IMG/VR virus record: IMGVR_UViG_3300027996_000199
Span: 1-21,382 of that record
Source of the DNA: a virus
DNA: 21,382 nt
Strand: one strand, 5' to 3'
The notes beneath the pieces are model-generated. The model was not told the DNA's origin. It was given only the letters and a program-made list of their open reading frames with translations, and did no database searches. The translations under genes and the position numbers were made by a program. Positions within the stretch are counted from its first letter, which is position 1, and every line of letters starts with the position of its first letter. Positions 7,062 to 21,382 of the stretch are shown here, in pieces.

Positions 7062-7583
7062 ATGAGTAAACAAAAAATAACACAGAAGTACTTTCACGCT
7101 TTGAAAGATTTGCATCAATTATTAAAATGTACCGATCAATTTCATGCAACAAAATTCGAAAGTCAACGAAACGTTCCACACAACTTCATTTTATGCGCGG
7201 TCCAACACAAACTGATTGAACGCTCTGGAACCAAAAGAAATTACAAATATAAATGGAACACGATTGAACCAACTTTGGAAATGGCTGTGGGATTAAGATT
7301 GCAAATGACTAAATATCAACAGCAAAAAAAGGCTGAACGTGAACAATCTGAAAACCAACACAAAATTGAATATAAATCAACGGTAGTTCATAAACCTAAA
7401 AAAAGATACAATGCTGATGATGTTCCTGCATACATAGAAGAACATAATCAAAAATCTAATCTTAATCCGGTAATTGAAAAACAACACACAACGCAATCAA
7501 TTCAATTCAATCATGATTTTGTAACAAAATCGTTTTCCATTCTTTGGGGATTGTTTAAGTTCGAACGCAGGATTGAAAAATAA
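7062..7583 (+). CDS. Early protein with winged-helix-like N terminus
   Basis: 173 aa, first gene after the early promoter. Residues about 8-75 resemble a winged helix: helix QKYFHALKDLHQLLKCT, helix NFILCAVQHKLIER, then a basic wing (SGTKRNYKYKWN) and PTLEMAVGLRLQ. The next 60 residues are charged and low in complexity (QQQKKAEREQSENQ). The C terminus ends FSILWGLFKFERRIEK, a Trp/Phe-rich basic ending that I recall from several small Bacteroidota phage and element proteins. I do not recognise a named family. DNA binding and an early regulatory role are inferred from the wing-like segment, the basic charge and the position. Confidence 0.6.
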   Translation: MSKQKITQKYFHALKDLHQLLKCTDQFHATKFESQRNVPHNFILCAVQHKLIERSGTKRNYKYKWNTIEPTLEMAVGLRLQMTKYQQQKKAEREQSENQHKIEYKSTVVHKPKKRYNADDVPAYIEEHNQKSNLNPVIEKQHTTQSIQFNHDFVTKSFSILWGLFKFERRIEK

Positions 7584-7621
7584 TCATTATTATATTAATA
7601 TAAACAATTAAAATTTAAAAC

Positions 7622-7939
7622 ATGGTAACAGATGGACAGTATTTAGATGCTTTAGTGACAGTTAAAAAGTATTTGGCTCAGATTAAGAGCGAAATTAATG
7701 AAGCGGAAAACGATGTGACACGTTATTTCAATCCCGCACTTGAAAAAAAAATTGTCGATCTCGATATTAGTACTAGATTATTCAATGTATTGAGATGTCA
7801 TCAGGTCAAAACTTTAGGGGACCTTGCTAGGTACAAAGCTAATGATGTAATTCGATTTAGAAATATGGGGACTAGATCATTTAGCGAAGTTAAACTTTTA
7901 CTAAAAACTAACGGTTTAAAGTTTGATATGTTTAAATAA
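7622..7939 (+). CDS. Free-standing RNA polymerase alpha-CTD-like protein
   Basis: 105 aa. Residues 43-105 read as the C-terminal domain of RNA polymerase alpha. DISTRLFNVL aligns with the E. coli helix LTVRSANCL, putting Arg52 and Asn55 at the DNA-contacting Arg265 and Asn268; the later FRNMGTRSFSEVK aligns with TPNLGKKSLTEIK, so Asn81, Gly83, Arg85 and Ser86 match Asn294, Gly296, Lys298 and Ser299. It ends GLKFDM, like GLSLGM. These residues bind UP elements and activators. Residues 1-42 are a short helical, acidic stretch, not the alpha N-terminal domain, so it cannot assemble into polymerase as alpha does. It may bind DNA or the host sigma factor and redirect transcription. Co-transcribed with the preceding gene (38-base gap). 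Confidence 0.75.
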   Translation: MVTDGQYLDALVTVKKYLAQIKSEINEAENDVTRYFNPALEKKIVDLDISTRLFNVLRCHQVKTLGDLARYKANDVIRFRNMGTRSFSEVKLLLKTNGLKFDMFK

Positions 7940-7951
7940 TCATTATATTTG
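7922..7951 (+). promoter_or_regulatory. Promoter for the structured RNA / replication operon
   Basis: TTTG (7922-7925), 18 bases, TATATTTG (7944-7951). It overlaps the last codons of the alpha-CTD-like gene. The expected start, about 7956-7958, coincides with the first base of the outer stem of the RNA described next. Confidence 0.7.
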
Positions 7952-7956
7952 TAAAA

Positions 7957-8052
7957 CGGTCACGGGTTCAAAATAAGGTGATCAAAGGAATTATTAATAA
8001 GCCTGATAATGAAAGTAGCTTGAACCCCTACCGGATTTATCGGGCTTTTTTT
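7957..8052 (+). ncRNA. Structured leader or small RNA with interleaved stems
   Basis: A roughly 96-nt transcript is bounded by a promoter and a T-tract. Stem A: GGGTTCAA (7964-7971) pairs perfectly with TTGAACCC (8020-8027), extended across a small internal loop by CGGT (7957-7960) with ACCG (8030-8033). Stem B: AAGCCTGATAA (7999-8009) pairs with TTATCGGGCTT (8037-8047) with one G-U pair, and ends in seven T (8046-8052). The two stems interleave (A, B, A', B'), so they form a pseudoknot or compete. Stem B plus the T-tract is a terminator. The T-tract ends 7 bases before the replication gene's ATG at 8060, so this is either an attenuator controlling that gene or a separate small RNA. No known RNA family was recognised. 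Confidence 0.6.
7999..8052 (+). terminator. Terminator arm of the structured RNA
   Basis: 11-bp stem 7999-8009 / 8037-8047 (one wobble) closing a long loop, then T 8046-8052. The long loop and the interleaved stem A make it look conditional; the only local alternative is a weak 3-bp CCG/CGG hairpin at 8031-8043. Confidence 0.55.
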
Positions 8053-8059
8053 ATTCAGT

Positions 8060-8788
8060 ATGGCACAAGGAAAAAAAACATTCATATTTTATTCAGATTG
8101 GATAAATATGATTCGAGAAATGCCTGATGCGGATGCCGGTGCATTATTGAAGCACGTTTTATCGTATGTCAATGATGAAAATCCCGAAACAGATAATCTT
8201 CTTGTTAAGATGGCATTCGGTCACATGAAGCCACTTTTGAAAGCTGATTTGGAAAAGTGGGATAACATTAGAGAAAAGCGAAAAAAAGCAGGTCGAAAAG
8301 GTGGTCAAGCAAATGCTAAGCAAAAGGAAGCAAATGCTAAGCAAGTGGAAGCCGTTAATGTTAATGTTAACGTAAATGATAATGTTAATGTAAATGATTC
8401 TTTAAATAAAGAATATAGTCAGAACGTTTTGCAAACGTTTGACGACTGCCTAAAATATTTTGATGATCATCTTCATCCTAAAAATGAAAAACAGTCGGAT
8501 AAATGGAAGGACACAATCGACAAGCTGAACCGAATCGAAAAGATACCGTTTGAAAATATTGTCGATATTGTCAGGAATACGCGTGACGATCCATTTTGGG
8601 CCAAGAACTTTTTATCCCTAAACAAACTACGCCAGAAAGACAAAAACGGCATCATGTACGTCGTGAAGTTTAATGAACAAATCAAATCAAATGCAAAAAA
8701 TCAACGAACTAATTCAAGCCAGCAAGCCGTCAGCGACGAACGACTTGCAGAAATCTATTCAAAGGTATTCGCTGACAAAAAAGAATGA
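8060..8788 (+). CDS. Replisome organiser-like replication protein (DUF6291-like N terminus)
   Basis: 242 aa. Residues 1-85 have the DUF6291-like pattern: KTFIFYSDWINMIREMPDADAG near the start, LLKHVLSYVND, VKMAFGHMKPLLKADLEKW, then EKRKKAGRKGGQANAK. Many phage replication-initiation proteins start this way. Residues 85-110 are a repetitive linker (ANAKQ repeats and Asn-Val repeats). The C-terminal part, with SDKWKDTIDKLNRIEKIPFE and DPFWAKNFLSLNKLRQKDKNG, resembles the DnaD-like tail of phage replisome organisers ('F-W-x-x-N-x-x-S-x-x-K-L-R'). It probably binds the phage origin and helps load helicase. It is directly behind the structured RNA and the next replication gene overlaps its end. 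The linker-coding DNA holds candidate origin repeats. Confidence 0.7.
   Translation: MAQGKKTFIFYSDWINMIREMPDADAGALLKHVLSYVNDENPETDNLLVKMAFGHMKPLLKADLEKWDNIREKRKKAGRKGGQANAKQKEANAKQVEAVNVNVNVNDNVNVNDSLNKEYSQNVLQTFDDCLKYFDDHLHPKNEKQSDKWKDTIDKLNRIEKIPFENIVDIVRNTRDDPFWAKNFLSLNKLRQKDKNGIMYVVKFNEQIKSNAKNQRTNSSQQAVSDERLAEIYSKVFADKKE
8307..8353 (+). repeat. 21-bp tandem repeat, candidate iterons
   Basis: Two full copies (8307-8327, 8328-8348) and the start of a third; the unit begins AAGCAAATGCTAAGCAA and the copies differ at two bases. Each contains AGCA-AA-TGCT, an inverted half-site pair. They code for ANAKQ-type linker residues in the replication protein. Confidence 0.7.
8354..8395 (+). repeat. 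Seven AT-rich 6-bp repeats next to the 21-bp repeats
   Basis: GTTAAT, GTTAAT, GTTAAC, GTAAAT, GATAAT, GTTAAT, GTAAAT in tandem, encoding an Asn-Val linker. Together with the 21-bp repeats the order is iteron-like repeats then an AT-rich, easily melted tract, as at the lambda origin inside gene O. Origin function is inferred. Confidence 0.6.
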
Positions 8789-9203
8789 TCATTTCGAACT
8801 GTCTGCATACAATGACGAATTGACACCACAAGGATTGATAAAGGCCGTTAAACGTGTTAAGCAATCATTCCCGTCATTGCACGATGGTTTTCATGAAATA
8901 TTTGCAGAACGCATCAAAGAAAAAGGATTCACGGACCGGCAATTGATTGATGCCGTGAATCATGTCATTGATAACTGCGAATATCCGACGCCAACGATTG
9001 CAAAATTCCTTTCGTTTGATAGCCGGATCAAGTTGCTGAACTATGAACAATACTTGAAAAGAAATGACGAAATGCATGGTCAGGCTTCGAAGTTTTACAA
9101 ATCAATTGCTGTTCCTGGATATGAAAAACCATTTTGGTCGCATGAAAACGACATTCAAAAATTTAACTTAACACTATGGAAAGACAGAAATCAAACGCGA
9201 TGA
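8691..9203 (+). CDS. Conserved replication-associated phage protein
   Basis: 170 aa from ATG 8691 (MQKINELIQASKP); an in-frame ATG at 8673 is possible, but the 8691 start has the A-rich leader AACAAATCAAATCAA. It overlaps the end of the preceding replication gene by about 100 bases in another frame. The core reads LTPQGLIKAVKRVKQSFPSL, GFTDRQLIDAVNHVIDNC, YPTPTIAKFLSFD and IKLLNYEQY. The pattern 'F-P, G-F-T/D, D-A-V-x-H-V-I, C-x-Y-P-x-P-T-I-A-x-F-x-S-F-D' is familiar from proteins found next to initiator or helicase-loader genes in Bacteroidota phages. A helicase-loading or primosome role is inferred from position; no ATPase motif is present. Confidence 0.6.
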   Translation: MQKINELIQASKPSATNDLQKSIQRYSLTKKNDHFELSAYNDELTPQGLIKAVKRVKQSFPSLHDGFHEIFAERIKEKGFTDRQLIDAVNHVIDNCEYPTPTIAKFLSFDSRIKLLNYEQYLKRNDEMHGQASKFYKSIAVPGYEKPFWSHENDIQKFNLTLWKDRNQTR

Positions 9204-9523
9204 AATATGCATTCCGGAACATGAAATCAAAGTACGAACATTTGATGAAAGGAAACAACTATAATGAATGCTTCACGGATTTGGACGGTTTATATTATTA
9301 CCAGGTATTCACAGAATCGGGATTGATTCAGGTAACGGATGAAGAAAAAAAACAGGTATGGAAACAAATAACAGGTGACGTGAAATCATGGTGGACCAGG
9401 TCAGAACGAAACCCACGAAAGGCCGAATTGATCGCAAAATCAAAATCAACCATTTTCCGAAATTGGATTCAGGACAAAGCGGATTCGAAAATGAAATTGG
9501 TTGATATTTGGAATTTAATTTGA
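9176..9523 (+). CDS. Small early protein, unknown function
   Basis: 115 aa, start ATG 9176 with leader AAAATTTAACTTAACACT; it overlaps the preceding gene by 28 bases. Highly basic at both ends, with KYAFRNMKSKYEHLMK, a central aromatic DGLYYYQVFTESG and a Trp-rich segment (QVWKQITGD, KSWWTRSERNPR). The FRNWIQDKADSK and VDIWNLI ending is amphipathic. I do not recognise it. Overlap with two replication genes suggests it belongs to the same translational unit. Confidence 0.55.
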   Translation: MERQKSNAMKYAFRNMKSKYEHLMKGNNYNECFTDLDGLYYYQVFTESGLIQVTDEEKKQVWKQITGDVKSWWTRSERNPRKAELIAKSKSTIFRNWIQDKADSKMKLVDIWNLI

Positions 9524-9552
9524 TCCAAAACAAAACTTTTTTATTATTTTTA

Positions 9553-9582
9553 TTGTATATATAAAATATATGTGTAAATTTG
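9553..9582 (+). promoter_or_regulatory. Promoter for the small-gene group
   Basis: TTG (9553-9555), 19 bases, TAAATTTG (9575-9582), matching the Bacteroidota promoter. Expected start about 9588, directly at the tandem octamer that follows. Confidence 0.7.
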
Positions 9583-9589
9583 GTATCAG

Positions 9590-9605
9590 TTAAACAATTA
9601 AACAA
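9590..9605 (+). repeat. Tandem octamer at the transcription start, candidate operator
   Basis: TTAAACAA occurs twice head to tail (9590-9597, 9598-9605), starting 8 bases past the TAnnTTTG box and ending 8 bases before ATG 9613. Ribbon-helix-helix proteins commonly bind tandem sites over their own promoters, and one is encoded two genes downstream. Confidence 0.45.
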
Positions 9606-9612
9606 TATACGA

Positions 9613-9882
9613 ATGAATAATATTAGCGAAGAATTAAAAGCAGAAATTAAAAACTTTGATTATGAAGCAATTTTTGCAGGTTGTGGAGACATACCACATA
9701 CAGCAGAATCTTTAGCGTTAGAGGCAGAGATTGAAGCGGAAAAGAAAGAGGAAGCAATCGAAGCGGCAAAATATAGAAAATGTGGGAGATGTAACGGGAA
9801 AGGAAGAATCGGACATTATCACTATGTTTCCAATGGCGTTTGTTTTGCGTGTGATGGTAAAGGTAAAATATATAAAGGGTAA
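9613..9882 (+). CDS. Small zinc-ribbon protein (DnaJ-type CxxCxGxG)
   Basis: 89 aa from ATG 9613 (MNNISEELKAEIKN); a TTG start 33 bases upstream is unlikely because it lies inside the promoter box. The N-terminal half is helical and strongly acidic with an AEIEAEKKEEAIEAAKY stretch. Residues 57-84 hold two CxxC pairs, Cys57/Cys60 and Cys77/Cys80, each followed by a NGKG or DGKG motif, the pattern of DnaJ-type zinc fingers. It probably binds one zinc and mediates protein or nucleic-acid contact; no J-domain is present. The gene follows a clear promoter. Confidence 0.65.
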   Translation: MNNISEELKAEIKNFDYEAIFAGCGDIPHTAESLALEAEIEAEKKEEAIEAAKYRKCGRCNGKGRIGHYHYVSNGVCFACDGKGKIYKG

Positions 9883-9886
9883 GATC

Positions 9887-10018
9887 ATGAAAAAAAAATT
9901 AATTGAAATGCCAACCGAGTTATTTAATCAGATAGTTCGGTTGGCTTCTGATAACGACAGAAGCGTTAACGCAGAGATACGCCACGCAATCAAAGTTTAT
10001 TTAAGACAAAGCAAGTAG
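9887..10018 (+). CDS. Ribbon-helix-helix DNA-binding protein
   Basis: 43 aa from ATG 9887, 4 bases past the preceding stop. An upstream extension in this frame overlaps the zinc-ribbon gene and is not a convincing start. The sequence MKKKLIEMPTELFNQIVRLA then RSVNAEIRHAIKVYLRQ fits the Arc/CopG ribbon-helix-helix fold: a short beta strand KKLIEMP, a first helix, a turn with DNDRSVN, a second helix. Such proteins act as dimers on tandem operators, often on their own promoter. The tandem octamer at 9590-9605 is the nearest candidate target. Confidence 0.7.
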   Translation: MKKKLIEMPTELFNQIVRLASDNDRSVNAEIRHAIKVYLRQSK

Positions 10019-10039
10019 AAAAACACTAAACAAAACACG

Positions 10040-10504
10040 ATGATCGCTAAAATCACAATTTGCATTTCACTATTCATCCAGTCCCCTATTGACTTAGACA
10101 GAGCAACGACTTACAACCCTGAAACAAGTCAATGCGACAACGATCCGTTGACAACTGCTGACGGTAGCCGAATTGATTTAGATAAACTTGCAAATGGTGA
10201 ATTAAGATGGTGCGCTTTGTCCAGGGATTTGATTTGGGATTTAGAACGTCAGAAATTGCACGACTACGATACAAGCATTTTCCGAGGCTTTTTTCGTTTC
10301 GGTGATACAATTGTCGTCGAATCAATTTCAAGCCCTCAAATCAACGGAAAATGGTGCGTGCGTGATTGTATGAATAAAAGATACAAGCGGTCGATTGACT
10401 TTTTGTTTGATCCGCGAAATAATAACCCAAAGCTAGGCGTATGCCCTGACGTTAAAATAACTAATATATGGCACAACTATTTAAAGGCGATTGCCTTGAA
10501 GTAA
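10040..10504 (+). CDS. Double-psi beta-barrel (3D/RlpA-like) protein
   Basis: 154 aa, start ATG 10040 with leader CACTAAACAAAACACG. Conserved positions of the 3D/RlpA double-psi beta-barrel group are visible: TTYNPETSQCD (23-33), TADGSRID (39-46), ALSRDLIWDL (59-68), FGDTI (87-91), NGKWCVRDCMNKR (102-114), SIDFLF and KLGVCPDVKI. Five cysteines suggest disulfides and export, and residues 4-13 (KITICISLFI) are a short hydrophobic stretch that could be a weak signal. Relatives cut or bind peptidoglycan glycan strands. In this early position it could aid lysis or entry, or be a host-derived cell-wall protein; no other lysis gene is seen. It overlaps the methyltransferase by 37 bases. Confidence 0.6.
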   Translation: MIAKITICISLFIQSPIDLDRATTYNPETSQCDNDPLTTADGSRIDLDKLANGELRWCALSRDLIWDLERQKLHDYDTSIFRGFFRFGDTIVVESISSPQINGKWCVRDCMNKRYKRSIDFLFDPRNNNPKLGVCPDVKITNIWHNYLKAIALK

Positions 10505-11220
10505 TGAAGTCTATTCCAGACGGAAGTATAGATGCTATAATAACCGACCCTCCATACGGAACAACCGCCTGTAAATGGGATAGTGTAATTGACTTCGAGT
10601 TGATGTGGGAGCAATTGAATAGAATCATTAAACCTAATGGTGCTATTGTTTTATTCGGAAGCGAGCCTTTTAGTAGTGCTTTGAGAATCAGCAATATTAA
10701 GAATTATAAGTATGATTGGAAGTGGATTAAAAACAGATACGGTAATTTTATATTAGCCTCTTGCCAACCTATAAAAGAACAAGAAGATATTATAGTTTTT
10801 TCATTAGGTGGAGCGTCCACTACAAGTAAAATTAAAATGCAATATAACCCACAATTCACAGGTCCACAAAAAAACAATTCACAGGTCCATAGTGAAATAA
10901 AAAATAGTTTAGGAAAATCTAAAATAGGTTATGAATTTAAAAGGAATATCAATAAGGGTGCTTTTCCTAAAAATATCCTAAAATTTAATTTTGATAAAGA
11001 TAGATTACACCCAACCCAAAAACCAATAGCATTAATGGAGTACCTAATAAAAACCTACACCAATGAAGGCGAAACGGTTTTAGATTTCACTATGGGTAGT
11101 GGCTCTACTGGAGTGGCAGCTAAAAACCTTAACCGAAAATTCATAGGAATAGAACAAGACGAAAAGTATTTTAACATAGCGGAACAAAGAATAAAAGAAA
11201 CAGAATTAAAGTTATTTTAA
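10468..11220 (+). CDS. DNA methyltransferase, beta class (N6-adenine/N4-cytosine)
   Basis: 250 aa. Motif IV is DPPYGTT (residues 27-33) near the N terminus, after KGDCLEVMKSIPDGSIDAI; the AdoMet-binding motif I is near the C terminus as LDFTMGSGSTG (205-215), with HPTQKPIALMEYLI before it. That order is the beta class. DPPY is typical of amino methyltransferases; N6-adenine is more likely than N4-cytosine but cannot be settled here. No restriction partner is adjacent, so it is a solo enzyme that may protect phage DNA from host restriction or mark it. The gene looks more A+T-rich than its neighbours by eye, suggesting recent acquisition. Last gene of the plus-strand block, 10 bases from the converging tape measure stop; no bidirectional terminator was seen. 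Confidence 0.88.
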   Translation: MAQLFKGDCLEVMKSIPDGSIDAIITDPPYGTTACKWDSVIDFELMWEQLNRIIKPNGAIVLFGSEPFSSALRISNIKNYKYDWKWIKNRYGNFILASCQPIKEQEDIIVFSLGGASTTSKIKMQYNPQFTGPQKNNSQVHSEIKNSLGKSKIGYEFKRNINKGAFPKNILKFNFDKDRLHPTQKPIALMEYLIKTYTNEGETVLDFTMGSGSTGVAAKNLNRKFIGIEQDEKYFNIAEQRIKETELKLF

Positions 11221-18137: not shown

Positions 18138-18722
18138 TTATAGTATTTCGTTTAATTTATCTAAAAGTAGTTGTTCCATTTTTTCAATTCGTTGTTCGGA
18201 AAATGCATCATTTACAAAGTTAGACGGTTCGATTCCGTCACGTTTTGTCGCTCGTGCTAGTAAGTAGGCAAGGGAATTATAATCGCCATCATCCGCGATG
18301 ATACCTTTTTCAGCCATCCAATTTTGCATTTTCCCTTGCTCGCCGTTCCTTCCATAATTCGCACCACCTCCAAACGCTTCGACCATTTTAGGCGACGGAT
18401 TAAGAGTTTTAAAGGATTGGACAACGCCGTCTTTTACATTCGGGATTGCTCCTGCTGATTGTTGAACACCGTCAACACCACTATTCAAATAATCCCAATA
18501 ATCATCCGCAAGGAAGTTGATAACAAATTTGCCATCTTCGAATTTTATAGGTTCATAACCGATTGACCTCTGCAAATTACCACTCCCATAGCGAACGGCA
18601 TCTTTCATTTCCTCAACTGTGTCTTTTGCGAATTGTTCTAAAACTTGTCCCAAAATACTGTTAGGACTTGTCCTGATTTCCTCGCGCTCTGTTCCGAATT
18701 GCTTTAGATATTCTTTGATCAT
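18138..18722 (-). CDS. Neck/tail-completion-like protein (HK97 gp10-like)
   Basis: 194 aa from ATG 18722 (MIKEYLKQFG). A longer version from TTG 18761 would start inside the terminator's T-tract region and is rejected. Residues about 30-75 read as the gp10-like core: helix VLEQFAKDTVEEMKDAV, GNLQRSIGYEPIKFEDG, then WDYLNSGVDGVQ. A Gly/Asn-rich middle is followed by SLAYLLARATKRDGIEPSNFV near the C terminus, the usual ending ('L-A-x-x-x-A-R-x-I-x-x-x-G-I-x-P-x-x-F'). Proteins of this family complete the head-tail junction or tail. It is the first gene after the methyltransferase terminator and is co-translated with the next gene (1-base gap). Confidence 0.55.
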   Translation of the reverse strand: MIKEYLKQFGTEREEIRTSPNSILGQVLEQFAKDTVEEMKDAVRYGSGNLQRSIGYEPIKFEDGKFVINFLADDYWDYLNSGVDGVQQSAGAIPNVKDGVVQSFKTLNPSPKMVEAFGGGANYGRNGEQGKMQNWMAEKGIIADDGDYNSLAYLLARATKRDGIEPSNFVNDAFSEQRIEKMEQLLLDKLNEIL

Positions 18723-18759
18723 TACTATAAAGATAGAAAAATCAACGGTTTGTTGAAAC

Positions 18760-18787
18760 AAAAAAAGGGATGCCGAAACATCCCCCT
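18760..18787 (-). terminator. Rho-independent terminator after the methyltransferase
   Basis: On the minus strand GGGATG (18784-18779), loop TTTCGG, CATCCC (18772-18767), then seven T (18766-18760). A perfect 6-bp GC-rich stem with a T-tract. It follows the methyltransferase stop by about 75 bases and precedes the neck gene, so the tail genes need read-through or their own promoter. Confidence 0.88.
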
Positions 18788-18860: not shown

Positions 18861-19865
18861 TTACGCACCAAGATCGAAAATAGTCAGTTGATTTAAAAAC
18901 GGCCTGCATCTTTCGTTTGTCATGTCAACATATTTTTTTTCAACATCGAATCCGATGAATCTACGTCCTTCTTTTGCGCTCATGGCGCACTCTGTTCCAC
19001 TACCTGCAAACGGAACGCACACAATGTCGTTTGGACGGGAACAAGTTAAAATTAATGCTCTTGTAAGTTTTTCGGGTTTTTTTGTTGGGTGGTCGCAATA
19101 ATTTATTTCTCTTGGAAATCTCAATATGTCTGTTAATCCTAAATCATTTTTGAAATACCTCCTTTTGTGTTCAAATTCCTGTCTTAAATCTTCGTACTCT
19201 TTCCTTAAATCTTCGTACTCTTTCCTTAAATATTCGTACTCTTTCCTTAAATATTCGTTGTTCAAATATTTTCTGACTTTCAAATACTGTTCTTCTGTTA
19301 TTACGTTGTCGCCATTTAGCCAGTTTGAAACACATCCCGTTAAGCCTCCTGTTTTGCTTGGGAATAGCTTTGCAATTTCTTTTCGTGTTACTTTCGCCTT
19401 TTTAAATTCATCTTGCAAGTATAAGCTAAACGGGTTTTTCGGTTTTATATACTGCTCAATTATTTGCTCCAATCCTGTTACATCCTCTTCATTGCTATAC
19501 ATAAGTAGTCGTTCTGCTCCACGTTCTGGAAATGTTCTTCTCGTGTCCCATTCATTAGGGTTGCTTGGTTTTTCCCAAACAAGAGTGCCAATTAAATAAA
19601 AGTACCTATCTAATATTATTTGAGCATAGGCAATTTTTCTATCCATCCCCCACCAAAACAAAGTCCCATTATCCGCTAAAATCCTTTTGCATTCAATCGC
19701 CCATTTTTCAACGTCTTTTAAATAGTCGTCAAACGTTTTCCAAATGAAATCAAATTCACCTTTAACCTGAAAATAAGGAGGATCGGCAATGATAAGCTGA
19801 ACTGATTTATCTGGAATTGAATTGTCTAAAAAATTAAGGTGATGTGCTTTGTTTATTCCGTTCAT
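18861..19865 (-). CDS. DNA methyltransferase, beta class, with inserted HTH-like and repeat segment
   Basis: 334 aa. Motif IV is DPPY at 28-31, after SVQLIIA; motif I is VPFAGSGTE at 284-292, after HPTKKPEKL (259-267); so it is a beta-class amino methyltransferase. Between them, residues about 153-203 hold a segment KVTRKEIAKLF, GGLTGCVSNWLNGDNVIT and EEQYLKVRKYLN, a helical DNA-binding-like insert that probably reads the target base sequence. Residues 206-232 are a seven-residue repeat (LRKEYED and variants) likely to form a helix, encoded by a 21-bp tandem repeat. It stands alone among tail genes, with its own terminator, so it is probably a late-expressed or independently acquired gene. 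The start ATG 19865 is 34 bases from the preceding stop. The target site is unknown. Confidence 0.85.
   Translation of the reverse strand: MNGINKAHHLNFLDNSIPDKSVQLIIADPPYFQVKGEFDFIWKTFDDYLKDVEKWAIECKRILADNGTLFWWGMDRKIAYAQIILDRYFYLIGTLVWEKPSNPNEWDTRRTFPERGAERLLMYSNEEDVTGLEQIIEQYIKPKNPFSLYLQDEFKKAKVTRKEIAKLFPSKTGGLTGCVSNWLNGDNVITEEQYLKVRKYLNNEYLRKEYEYLRKEYEDLRKEYEDLRQEFEHKRRYFKNDLGLTDILRFPREINYCDHPTKKPEKLTRALILTCSRPNDIVCVPFAGSGTECAMSAKEGRRFIGFDVEKKYVDMTNERCRPFLNQLTIFDLGA
19183..19258 (-). repeat. 21-bp tandem repeat inside the methyltransferase
   Basis: About 3.6 copies of a 21-bp unit (19183-19203, 19204-19224, 19225-19245, partial 19246-19258). On the plus strand it begins CTTAAATCTTCGTACTC, and one base changes from the third copy onward (TAAATC to TAAATA). 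In frame it encodes the heptad LRKEYE(D/Y), so copy number changes stay in frame. Confidence 0.9.
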
Positions 19866-19898: not shown

Positions 19899-20117
19899 TT
19901 ATTTTTTAGACCTCAATCGTTCCTCTGCGATTTCGTCCTGAATGAAGTCCGACTTATACATGAAAACAACAATGTTCCAGGATACAACGTCCTCCCATGT
20001 TGTGTTGAATCGCTTTGCTACGTAGTCGATTGATTTTTCCCAGTCCCATTTTTTTTCCTTTGAACCAGTTCCCTTTGTCGTTCGCTTGAATAAGGCGTTA
20101 ACCCTTTCCAACTCTGC
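19899..20117 (-). CDS. -1 frame extension of the tail assembly chaperone-like gene
   Basis: This frame is open through the 3' end of the chaperone-like gene and encodes 72 residues, starting AELERVNALFKR at the slippery site and ending EEERLRSKK-like (EIAEERLRSKK). It has no good start of its own: the first possible one is a TTG at 20111. Joined by a -1 shift at 20117-20123, it makes a 249-aa protein with a natural continuation, FF(L)AELERVNALF, containing KWDWEKSIDYVAKRF and WEDVVSWNIVVFMYK. Short, Trp- and charge-rich C-terminal extensions of this type are what gpT-like parts of chaperones look like. Not an independent gene. Confidence 0.6.
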   Translation of the reverse strand, partial: AELERVNALFKRTTKGTGSKEKKWDWEKSIDYVAKRFNTTWEDVVSWNIVVFMYKSDFIQDEIAEERLRSKK

Positions 20118-20647
20118 AAAAAAAAAGCCTTCAAATCTAAATATTGAGCAAGGTTGAAATGCTTTTCGAGAATCTCGCCACGTTCACGGCGAGGATTTTT
20201 GATTTTGTTCGATTTGTCTATTTCATTGTAAACCAAACCATCCTCAATATACATCATGCCGATAATATCAACCATGCCCGTTCTTGGATCAATTGATTTG
20301 ATGTCACGGTGAAATGAAACAGGCTGATCGGTGAAGTCAAGATTCAATACGTATTTCGTGCCGTTATCGACGATTTCAGCCCTCGGTTTGTTTTCGGTGT
20401 ACTTTGATGCCGATTCAAGAATGTTCGCCAATATAACACGATTTGAATGGTCCGTGTATCTGTCGAAGTGATCAGGTGCGCTTTCAAAGAAAACCGCGTT
20501 CAAATCCGACACCTGGACCGCATCAAGTTTTGCAAGGAAATCAGGTTCGACGTTCTCGCCTGCTAATTCTGTTAATTCAACAAAGAACTTCGCTTTGCTT
20601 ATCGGCATATCTGCGACCGTTTCAGGTATTTTAACTTTTTCAATCAT
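20018..20647 (-). CDS. Tail assembly chaperone-like protein, zero-frame product
   Basis: 209 aa in the zero frame. The N-terminal helical part starts VKIPETVADMPISKAKFFVEL. A central domain includes YVLNLDFTDQPVSFHRDIKS, GMMYIEDGLVYNEIDKSN and NPRRERGEILEKHFNLAQYLDLKAFF (the last ends at residue 176). Such proteins in Bacteroidota phages carry 'I-Y-I-E-x-G-L-x-Y-N, N-P-R-x-x-R, HF-N-L-A-x-Y-L-D-L' and occupy the chaperone position before tape measure. After Phe176 the zero frame enters a 33-residue, Lys/Gln/Ser-rich tail ending KNQSTT that looks like out-of-frame sequence. The ATG 20647 overlaps the glycosyltransferase stop by 8 bases. Chaperone function is inferred from pattern, order and the frameshift. 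Confidence 0.6.
   Translation of the reverse strand: MIEKVKIPETVADMPISKAKFFVELTELAGENVEPDFLAKLDAVQVSDLNAVFFESAPDHFDRYTDHSNRVILANILESASKYTENKPRAEIVDNGTKYVLNLDFTDQPVSFHRDIKSIDPRTGMVDIIGMMYIEDGLVYNEIDKSNKIKNPRRERGEILEKHFNLAQYLDLKAFFLQSWKGLTPYSSERQRELVQRKKNGTGKNQSTT
20117..20123 (-). other. Slippery heptamer T TTT TTG
   Basis: On the minus strand a run of nine T (20126-20118) followed by G gives zero-frame codons GCT TTT TTT TTG, ending in T TTT TTG, a canonical -1 slippery heptamer in the correct phase. Re-pairing of both tRNAs by -1 places the ribosome in the open 72-codon frame. The same run of nine T could also be a transcriptional slippage site or a sequencing indel. Confidence 0.6.
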
Positions 20648-21269
20648 AATTTAATTTGAATATTTTGTCTGCAATCTCATTCTGAATCCGACAATCTTTC
20701 GATTCAGTGTCGAATATCGTTTCTTTGTTGTTGATGTGTTTAATCCATCCGGCTTTGTGTTTAAGAACTCCGATTGTTTTCTGTTGCTTGGCGGCCTCTA
20801 AGCTGAACAGAAGATCCGACATTCGAAGTCGTGGATCACTTGCCAAACCTTTCGGATGGAAATATCTTGTATCGAATGCTGTCACACCTGTTCCAGCCAC
20901 GTCAATCACTTGCGATTCGGGAACCGTACCAAGACAATGGAAGGATTTGTGCGCTTTGTAATAGTTTAGCCCCTCACCGAGCAACAAACGCCCGTGCAAG
21001 GTGATGATGCAATCAAATTTCTGAATCGATATGATCATCTTTTCAACATAGTCAGGTGGATAAGTCAAATCATCGTCAAGCAAGAACATGAAACAAGGTT
21101 CGTCAATGTGGTCAAGTGCATGAAATTTTGCATTATCTGCCCTGTCCAAATCGGTTGACGAATTGTCCATCAACCAAAATTCATCCAATTGCGGCTGAAT
21201 CGAATCAATCGCCTTTTGTCTTGTGTTGGCTCGTTTTTCATACGTGGCCATGCATCCGATTGTTTTCAT
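20640..21269 (-). CDS. Glycosyltransferase, GT-A type
   Basis: 209 aa from ATG 21269 (MKTIGCMATYEKR); a TTG two bases earlier in the stop overlap is not needed. Features of a GT-A glycosyltransferase: an N-terminal strand with the sugar-nucleotide loop, ADNAKFHALDHI near 45-56, FMFLLDDDLTYPPDYVEKMI with the DDD metal motif (about 64-67), TLHGRLL near 92-98, VAGTGVTAFDTRYFHP near 124-139 and MSDLLFSLEAAKQ followed by VLKHKAGWIKH. This reading is like phage-encoded glycosyltransferases that modify virion or host surface sugars. It is coupled to the gene upstream by TGATG. The acceptor cannot be predicted; capsid or tail decoration, DNA base modification and host polysaccharide alteration are all possible. 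Confidence 0.75.
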   Translation of the reverse strand: MKTIGCMATYEKRANTRQKAIDSIQPQLDEFWLMDNSSTDLDRADNAKFHALDHIDEPCFMFLLDDDLTYPPDYVEKMIISIQKFDCIITLHGRLLLGEGLNYYKAHKSFHCLGTVPESQVIDVAGTGVTAFDTRYFHPKGLASDPRLRMSDLLFSLEAAKQQKTIGVLKHKAGWIKHINNKETIFDTESKDCRIQNEIADKIFKLNYD

Positions 21270-21382
21270 CAATGATAATCCTCTTTATTTAAAATTTTGT
21301 CCAACACGATCAAATCCTCATACGTTAACGGCAGATTCTTACCACCTTTTATTTTGATGTTCACGTCGATCAATTGCCATGC
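21269..21382 (-). CDS. C-terminal end of an unknown upstream gene
   Basis: A minus-strand frame is open from the window edge to a TGA at 21271-21269, giving 37 residues ending in LTYEDLIVLDKILNKEDYH. The stop shares its last A with the glycosyltransferase ATG (TGATG), the coupling style of this block, so it is very likely a real gene running into the next window. Too short to identify. Confidence 0.65.
   Translation of the reverse strand, partial: AWQLIDVNIKIKGGKNLPLTYEDLIVLDKILNKEDYH

Follow-up and report, generated by a model that had tools for sequence, protein, structure and literature searches.

The window analysed here, a viral contig of 21,382 bases, carries on its minus strand a gene that is divided between two overlapping reading frames (Table 1). 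A run of nine T starts in codon 174 of the 209-codon zero frame, at codon position 3, and the zero frame reads GCT TTT TTT TTG CAG across it, a context that holds the heptamer T_TTT_TTG and also T_TTT_TTT. The -1 frame is open for 75 codons, as far as position 19899, and joining the two frames at the run gives a protein of 249 aa. An earlier note on this DNA had proposed that a -1 event at T_TTT_TTG joins the frames of a tail assembly chaperone-like gene, and had remarked that a separate gene for the extension would have a TTG start only. The latter remark is correct for the window, where TTG is the sole start codon of the -1 ORF, the stretch from the preceding stop to the run lacks an ATG in this frame, and the -1 domain of 75 residues has its first Met at residue 56. 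In the AlphaFold2 model of the 209-aa product the mean pLDDT is 86.7, with values of 58, 65 and 45 for the last blocks.

Table 1. Features of the two-frame gene and its surroundings in the window.
Feature	Position	Strand	Description
Whole two-frame gene	19899..20647	-	Long product of 249 aa, N domain plus -1 domain
Zero-frame product, 209 aa	20018..20647	-	N domain (residues 1-176) and a basic tail beyond the run
Putative slip site	20118..20126	-	Exactly nine T, as in 27/27 intact members
-1-frame domain, 75 aa	19899..20126	-	Counterpart of the helical C domain of the fused relative L062
Glycosyltransferase-like gene	20640..21272	-	Pfam Glycos_transf_2, 5.8e-6; just upstream, overlapping the gene start by 8 bases
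N6/N4-type DNA methylase gene	18861..19865	-	Between the chaperone-like and gp10-like genes; absent there in L002
HK97-gp10-like tail completion/neck protein	18138..18761	-	Pfam HK97-gp10_like, 3.4e-4; PHROG_5, 0.0081; conserved neighbour by synteny
Tape-measure-like protein, 795 aa	11231..13618	-	Weak: tblastn match to the tape measure of a Porphyromonas phage (E=6e-3 over 9%); relative position corresponds to that of P12024L gp50

The nearest relative, IMG/VR 3300005613_000224 (loci L002 and L013), keeps the run and both frames, with 76% and 87% identity. The Nonlabens phage P12024L was reached through a portal match, and its gp40, located behind the terminase, reads CTT TTT TTT TAT and is continued by a -1 ORF, the end of which bears the annotation gp41. 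This portal match and then the terminase of L002 served as the entry route to further relatives. A total of 56 terminase-based loci were scanned for in-phase X_XXY_YYZ heptamers with a longer -1 frame, then for homopolymer runs, which yielded more contigs with the identical arrangement, and the set was completed with profiles of the N part and of the -1 part together with a protein-pattern scan. Both domains were found in 29 distinct sources, i.e., 27 intact members with the run, L033 and L062. The 27, which are distinct contigs or genomes that keep both frames and include the cultured Nonlabens phages P12024L and P12024S, form 12 clusters at 50% identity and 14 at 70%; 12 of them were recovered by the protein pattern search alone, in which the T run was not required. 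Duplicates were counted once (L002, L003, L006, L007 and L073 with L013; L011 with L010; L075, L077, L079 and L086 with L015, L018, L019 and L024, respectively), and L020, L021 and L026, whose loci stop short of the site, were not counted. L033 (6962-8033) was left out of the 27: it is a family member with nine T whose frames are broken before and after the run, probably by sequence errors. Alignment A6 comprises 18 of the 27 members plus L062.

The comparison with relatives that the earlier note had suggested thus finds the T run and both frames conserved in 27/27. The note had also named a relative with a single frame and no T run as evidence against its proposal, and one such relative exists: in L062 the N part (5e-19) and the C part (5e-6) lie in one ORF directly behind the terminase, without any T run. 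Yet 27 other contigs keep the split form, and for this reason L062 argues for the fusion as a real product. Several other searches were unproductive: tblastn of the window protein against 50,697 phage records gave no match, neither the N part nor the portal retrieved a relative from genome contigs, single proteins or two-row alignments retrieved only one viral contig, and tblastn of the L018 and L043 genes against phages returned nothing useful. Single-frame genes behind the terminase in Bacteroides phages BU183P1 and ARB25 and in L045-type and L030-type contigs were considered as relatives and rejected (hhalign E 0.18, 0.0081 with a probability of 5%, and 0.13); the C-terminal ends of L045, L046, L047, L059, L067, L030, L038, L039, BU183P1 and ARB25 look similar by eye, a resemblance that hhalign does not support. 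Likewise, the annotated single-frame 250-aa chaperone of Flavobacterium phage FPSV-S2, encoded directly before the tape measure gene, shows no detectable relation to the family (HMM scan, plus strand, all loci).

In members with long enough flanks a gene order recurs, namely terminase, chaperone-like gene, gp10-like gene, a gene of about 370-400 aa and a gene of about 850-900 aa, with insertions in some members and differences in detail in the Inhavirus branch. In the window, between the chaperone-like gene and the tape-measure-like gene lie the methylase gene, the gp10-like gene and genes for proteins of 388, 854 and 262 aa. The earlier note's statement that the gene sits several genes ahead of the tape measure is therefore accurate for the window, and the same order is seen in P12024L, where the PHROG matches are tail completion/neck for gp43 (4e-4) and tape measure for gp50 (5.6e-12). 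BLASTP of the window's tape-measure-like protein against gp50 gave no significant match (E 0.36). Terminase and chaperone-like gene touch in many other members; in L002 (3848-6004) they are separated by genes that by eye resemble those of glycosyltransferases and methyltransferases. Additionally, the minus-strand structural genes of the window are broken up by a plus-strand gene block (7062-11220), within which a second methylase-like gene is seen by eye (10468-11220), and the central part of the methylase gene at 18861-19865 codes for a repeated EYLRKEY-type stretch.

The element that the family keeps is the homopolymer. In all 27 intact members the run is exactly nine T long, never eight or ten, and the C domain follows in the -1 frame, whereas the bases flanking the run vary. 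The codon phase of the run varies as well: it starts at codon position 3 in 21 members, at position 2 in four (L048, P12024L, P12024S and L012) and at position 1 in two (L016 and L043). Relative to the heptamer, the extra Ts fall upstream (2+7+0), on both sides (1+7+1) or downstream (0+7+2), depending on the phase. The run has slid by one base, with its length still nine, between the sisters L016 and L022 and between L043 and L048, and on the tree of the 27 at least three phase changes have occurred, the length being unchanged throughout. The heptamer T_TTT_TTG highlighted by the earlier note is indeed present in the window, but it is not the conserved element: it is in phase in 20/27 members and missing from seven, whose contexts are TTT TTT TTT ACC, TTT TTT TTT GCG, GTT TTT TTT TAC, CTT TTT TTT TAT and AAT TTT TTT TTC, whereas T9 is kept in any phase. 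Such a pattern is better explained by slippage on the homopolymer, for which RNA polymerase may be responsible, than by tandem tRNA slippage at one heptamer.

For 14 representatives, the probability of a run of exactly nine per lineage, given the lineage's own codon usage, is 0.034-0.083 if an in-phase T_TTT_TTN is assumed and 0.11-0.14 if T_TTT_TTT is assumed, values that are not independent because the lineages share ancestry (hence their product was not used as a P value) and that ignore the amino acid constraint of the -1 frame, Phe codons needed by both frames also favoring T. Long T runs are otherwise avoided in these contigs: among 188 other ORFs (145,536 bases) the longest sense T run is seven, runs of at least eight number 0 against 4.8 expected from synonymous shuffling, and A runs of at least nine number 2 against 12.3 expected, although this avoidance may have causes other than transcriptional slippage. 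Within the 27 chaperone-like genes themselves, the sole other T run of at least eight is a second, in-frame T8 at position 10692 of L013.

Codon-position analysis covered 21 of the 27 members, i.e., the window/L013 pair, a 12-member group, the pairs L016/L022 and L043/L048, and the Inhavirus trio L010/L012/L069. Between the window and its nearest relative, variation before the run is concentrated at zero-frame position 3 (62/173 vs 29/174 and 21/174), and after the run at -1-frame position 3 (7/32 in the overlap and 12/41 beyond it, vs 2-3 at the other positions). In the 12-member group, zero-frame position 3 is variable in 148/159 columns before the run (vs 81/160 and 46/160), and -1-frame position 3 takes over in the overlap (33/48 vs 18/48 and 26/49) and beyond it (24/28 vs 4/28 and 10/27); the pattern of the Inhavirus trio resembles that of this group, as does that of the window pair. 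The sliding pairs are less uniform. In L016/L022 the flip is seen only beyond the overlap, in which -1-frame position 3 varies in 8/36 columns vs 11 and 15, and L043/L048 shows it clearly in the overlap but weakly further on (26/49 vs 16/49 and 24/48). No column varies inside the run in the groups of 2, 12 and 3 members, and one does in each sliding pair. Selection thus changes to the codon positions of the -1 frame right after the run in most groups tested, and the earlier proposal that a -1 event joins the two frames is upheld by this flip and by the retention of run and frames in 27 members.

As to the agent of this event, we consider it rather probable that RNA polymerase slips on T9 (programmed transcriptional slippage) and that this sets two chaperone-like products. 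One start would then give two proteins: unslipped mRNA with nine U would encode the 209-aa form, an N domain with a short tail, and the addition of one U (10 U) or the loss of two while the run is transcribed would bring the -1 frame into register and yield the 249-aa form with the conserved C domain. The slipping agent would be RNA polymerase itself, and the ratio of the two products would be set by the slip. This reading is the likeliest because evolution keeps the length of a homopolymer and not a codon-phased heptamer; a T9 fixed in length but free in codon position suggests that the slip is RNA polymerase's and not the ribosome's. Programmed transcriptional slippage is marked by an A/T run of about nine or more, of a length conserved in homologs and placed between two frames; all 27 members possess such a run, of exactly nine T, and it is independent of codon phase. 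Such slippage produces mRNAs of differing run length in vivo. In line with this reading, a 9A or 9T run of conserved length in homologs is described as very likely purposeful slippage in passages of Baranov et al. (2005, PMC1088944), and an excerpt of another paper names T9 as the run of mxiE, gives 7 T as the minimum for E. coli RNA polymerase and reports that this enzyme slips more on poly(T) (PMC6260861).

A possible reading, which we hold with less conviction, is that the ribosome slips by classical -1 programmed frameshifting at T_TTT_TTT (or at T_TTT_TTG), the mechanism of lambda G/GT and of HK97-type chaperones, and that the extra Ts only boost efficiency. Since nine T in any phase always contain an in-phase T_TTT_TTT, every one of the 27 members has an in-phase X_XXY_YYZ heptamer at which ribosomal slippage is possible. 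Moreover, the chaperone precedents (lambda, HK97-like) are ribosomal, and a gene in chaperone position in Porphyromonas phage005 combines T_TTT_TTG, with only six T, with a -1 ORF, which makes it possible that phages of Bacteroidota have a ribosomal site. However, nothing in the ribosomal model fixes the run at nine in every codon phase. An internal Shine-Dalgarno (SD) sequence upstream and RNA structure downstream are common, though not obligatory, stimulators of -1 frameshifting; in the 18 of 27 members examined, SD-like pieces were found within 30 nt upstream in none (0 of 18), and no downstream folding signal was detected (mean z 0.04 over 60 nt and 0.33 over 5-85 nt, for pseudoknot-free folding). 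In addition, passages that also describe the lambda G/GT frameshift rate U_UUU_UUU as a poor site for ribosomal shifting in E. coli in comparison with A_AAA_AAG (PMC5009743), and the ribosomes of Bacteroidia are described in excerpts of a further paper as occluding their anti-SD (PMC8710568). The same excerpts report prfB frameshifting as common in Bacteroidia (523/726; PMC8710568), which shows that ribosomal recoding works there.

Known systems resemble the locus in different respects. Lambda gpG/gpGT resembles the gene described here in that a single start serves both products, the long one requiring a -1 shift close to where the first frame ends and carrying a C domain read from the second frame, and in its location in the tail gene block. 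Lambda, however, uses a ribosomal heptamer in a gene just before the tape measure gene H, whereas the present family has a phase-independent T9 and several genes in between, and no family match was detected. The Porphyromonas phage005 protein XAW31823 shares with the family a -1 ORF behind T_TTT_TTG and the chaperone position before the tape measure, but it has only six T and its sequence shows no detectable relation to the family. At this site (L004 14119-14127; Porphyromonas phage005b, PP754928) the sequence reads GAT TTT TTG and the -1 ORF, which likely reflects an unannotated chaperone frameshift, extends to 14393, its last part being annotated as the short gene XAW31825.

Among systems in which transcription is involved, mxiE of Shigella flexneri has nine T and two overlapping frames, and its long product needs a non-templated base, as would be the case here (passages of PMC1088944 and PMC6260861); mxiE encodes a type III secretion regulator whose slippage is experimentally reported, whereas in the phage gene it is predicted from sequence. 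In dnaX of Thermus thermophilus (A9), transcription of a nine-base homopolymer similarly sets the product mix, but slippage shortens the product there and would lengthen it here (passages of PMC1088944). Similarly, for the orfA/orfB genes of IS elements the same passages describe a 9A run of a length conserved in homologs between two overlapping frames (PMC1088944); these are transposase genes with A runs, whereas a T run in a tail-block gene is found here. In the open-licence literature covered as titles, starts of abstracts and some passages, no paper describes the present slip site.

Tail assembly chaperones of the lambda G/GT type bind tape measure and tail tube proteins and are absent from virions. 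By analogy with them, the two-frame protein is probably a tail assembly chaperone that works like lambda G/GT, in which case the N part would coat the tape measure protein and the C domain would recruit tail tube subunits. A shared N part with a longer form made by programmed frameshift, the hallmark of these chaperones, is found at the level of sequence in 27/27 members. In contrast, the gene is not directly upstream of the tape measure gene, in the window and P12024L alike, which is the usual but not strictly defining place of a chaperone gene; hence membership is not claimed, only likeness in working. The earlier designation as tail-chaperone-like fits the anatomy and the neighbors of the gene, and the proposed role rests on these because no chaperone family matched significantly: searches of PHROG, Pfam and NCBIfam gave no significant chaperone match, Phage_TAC_7 appearing at 0.14 in 1 of 19 members. 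Solved folds did not match either, with no PDB entry at E < 0.001 and VIA Z scores of at most 4.0 and 2.5 in two comparisons. The model of L062, confident like that of the window's N product (pLDDT 86.2), shows the C domain as a separate helical domain, and the structure matches are uncharacterised phage proteins, including I6R9M9, a 175-aa protein of P12024S, and proteins of 243-267 aa, each from a single ORF, that align over both domains (TMq 0.70-0.72); proteins labelled as tail assembly chaperones are matched in fold only at E 0.17-0.35.

It is unlikely, in our assessment, that the frame-fusion gene encodes some other morphogenesis factor, an option compatible with either slip mechanism. 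The distance to the tape measure gene would suit such a factor, as would the lack of matches to chaperone families and solved folds; however, short and long isoforms that have a common N domain, with a small -1 C domain in the tail block, are the pattern of chaperones, and the fold matches to chaperone-labelled proteins, weak as they are, point the same way.

The -1 domain could also be read as a separate gene with its own start, as GenBank does for P12024L by annotating gp41 (2074-2241 of L010), which starts at the zero-frame stop, as a 55-aa protein. This is very improbable, given that -1-frame constraint starts immediately behind the run, that in 26/27 members no ATG occurs in the stretch from the upstream -1 stop to the run (the exception being L043, at -52), that the first Met is at residue 29 or later and the C domain of L074 has no Met at all, that a -1-frame stop abuts the run in L022, and that L062 is a single-frame fusion. 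The annotated 55-aa gp41, likewise in P12024S, covers only the end of the gp40 -1 domain, and the fused product is unannotated. Nine-base homopolymers are tracts of the kind that mutate by replication slippage, and phase variation, in which slipped-strand changes of the DNA would toggle the C domain within a population, is extremely improbable: phase-variable tracts vary in length between isolates, but all 27 runs are exactly nine, none eight or ten, and the deposited frame relation is -1 in every case. Homopolymers are also prone to sequencing error, and L062 is single-framed, but a sequencing or assembly error or a decayed gene whose true frame is one ORF has a vanishingly small probability in view of the identical run in independently sequenced genomes, the cultured P12024L and P12024S among them, and of selection on the zero frame before the run and on the -1 frame after it. 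To judge from this conservation, the two-frame arrangement is real, neither a sequencing error nor a dead gene.

Taken to the level of the clade, it is an evenly balanced question whether phages related to those of Bacteroidota set the ratio of their tail chaperones by polymerase stutter on T9, in place of the lambda-type ribosomal frameshift. Such a device would suit hosts that hide their anti-SD and would be dispensable in L062; the window's own host may belong to the Bacteroidota, as its phage relatives suggest. In annotations the genes of the family appear as separate ORFs or as hypothetical ones, and software that searches for in-phase heptamers would point to the wrong element. Since P12024L and P12024S are cultured, the slip is directly testable by RNA sequencing, and the single-frame L062 offers a natural control for the purpose of the short form. 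If the slip is transcriptional, the textbook case of ribosomal recoding, the tail chaperone G/GT, has a transcriptional counterpart, and a different level of readout yields the same protein outcome, as had earlier been found for dnaX.
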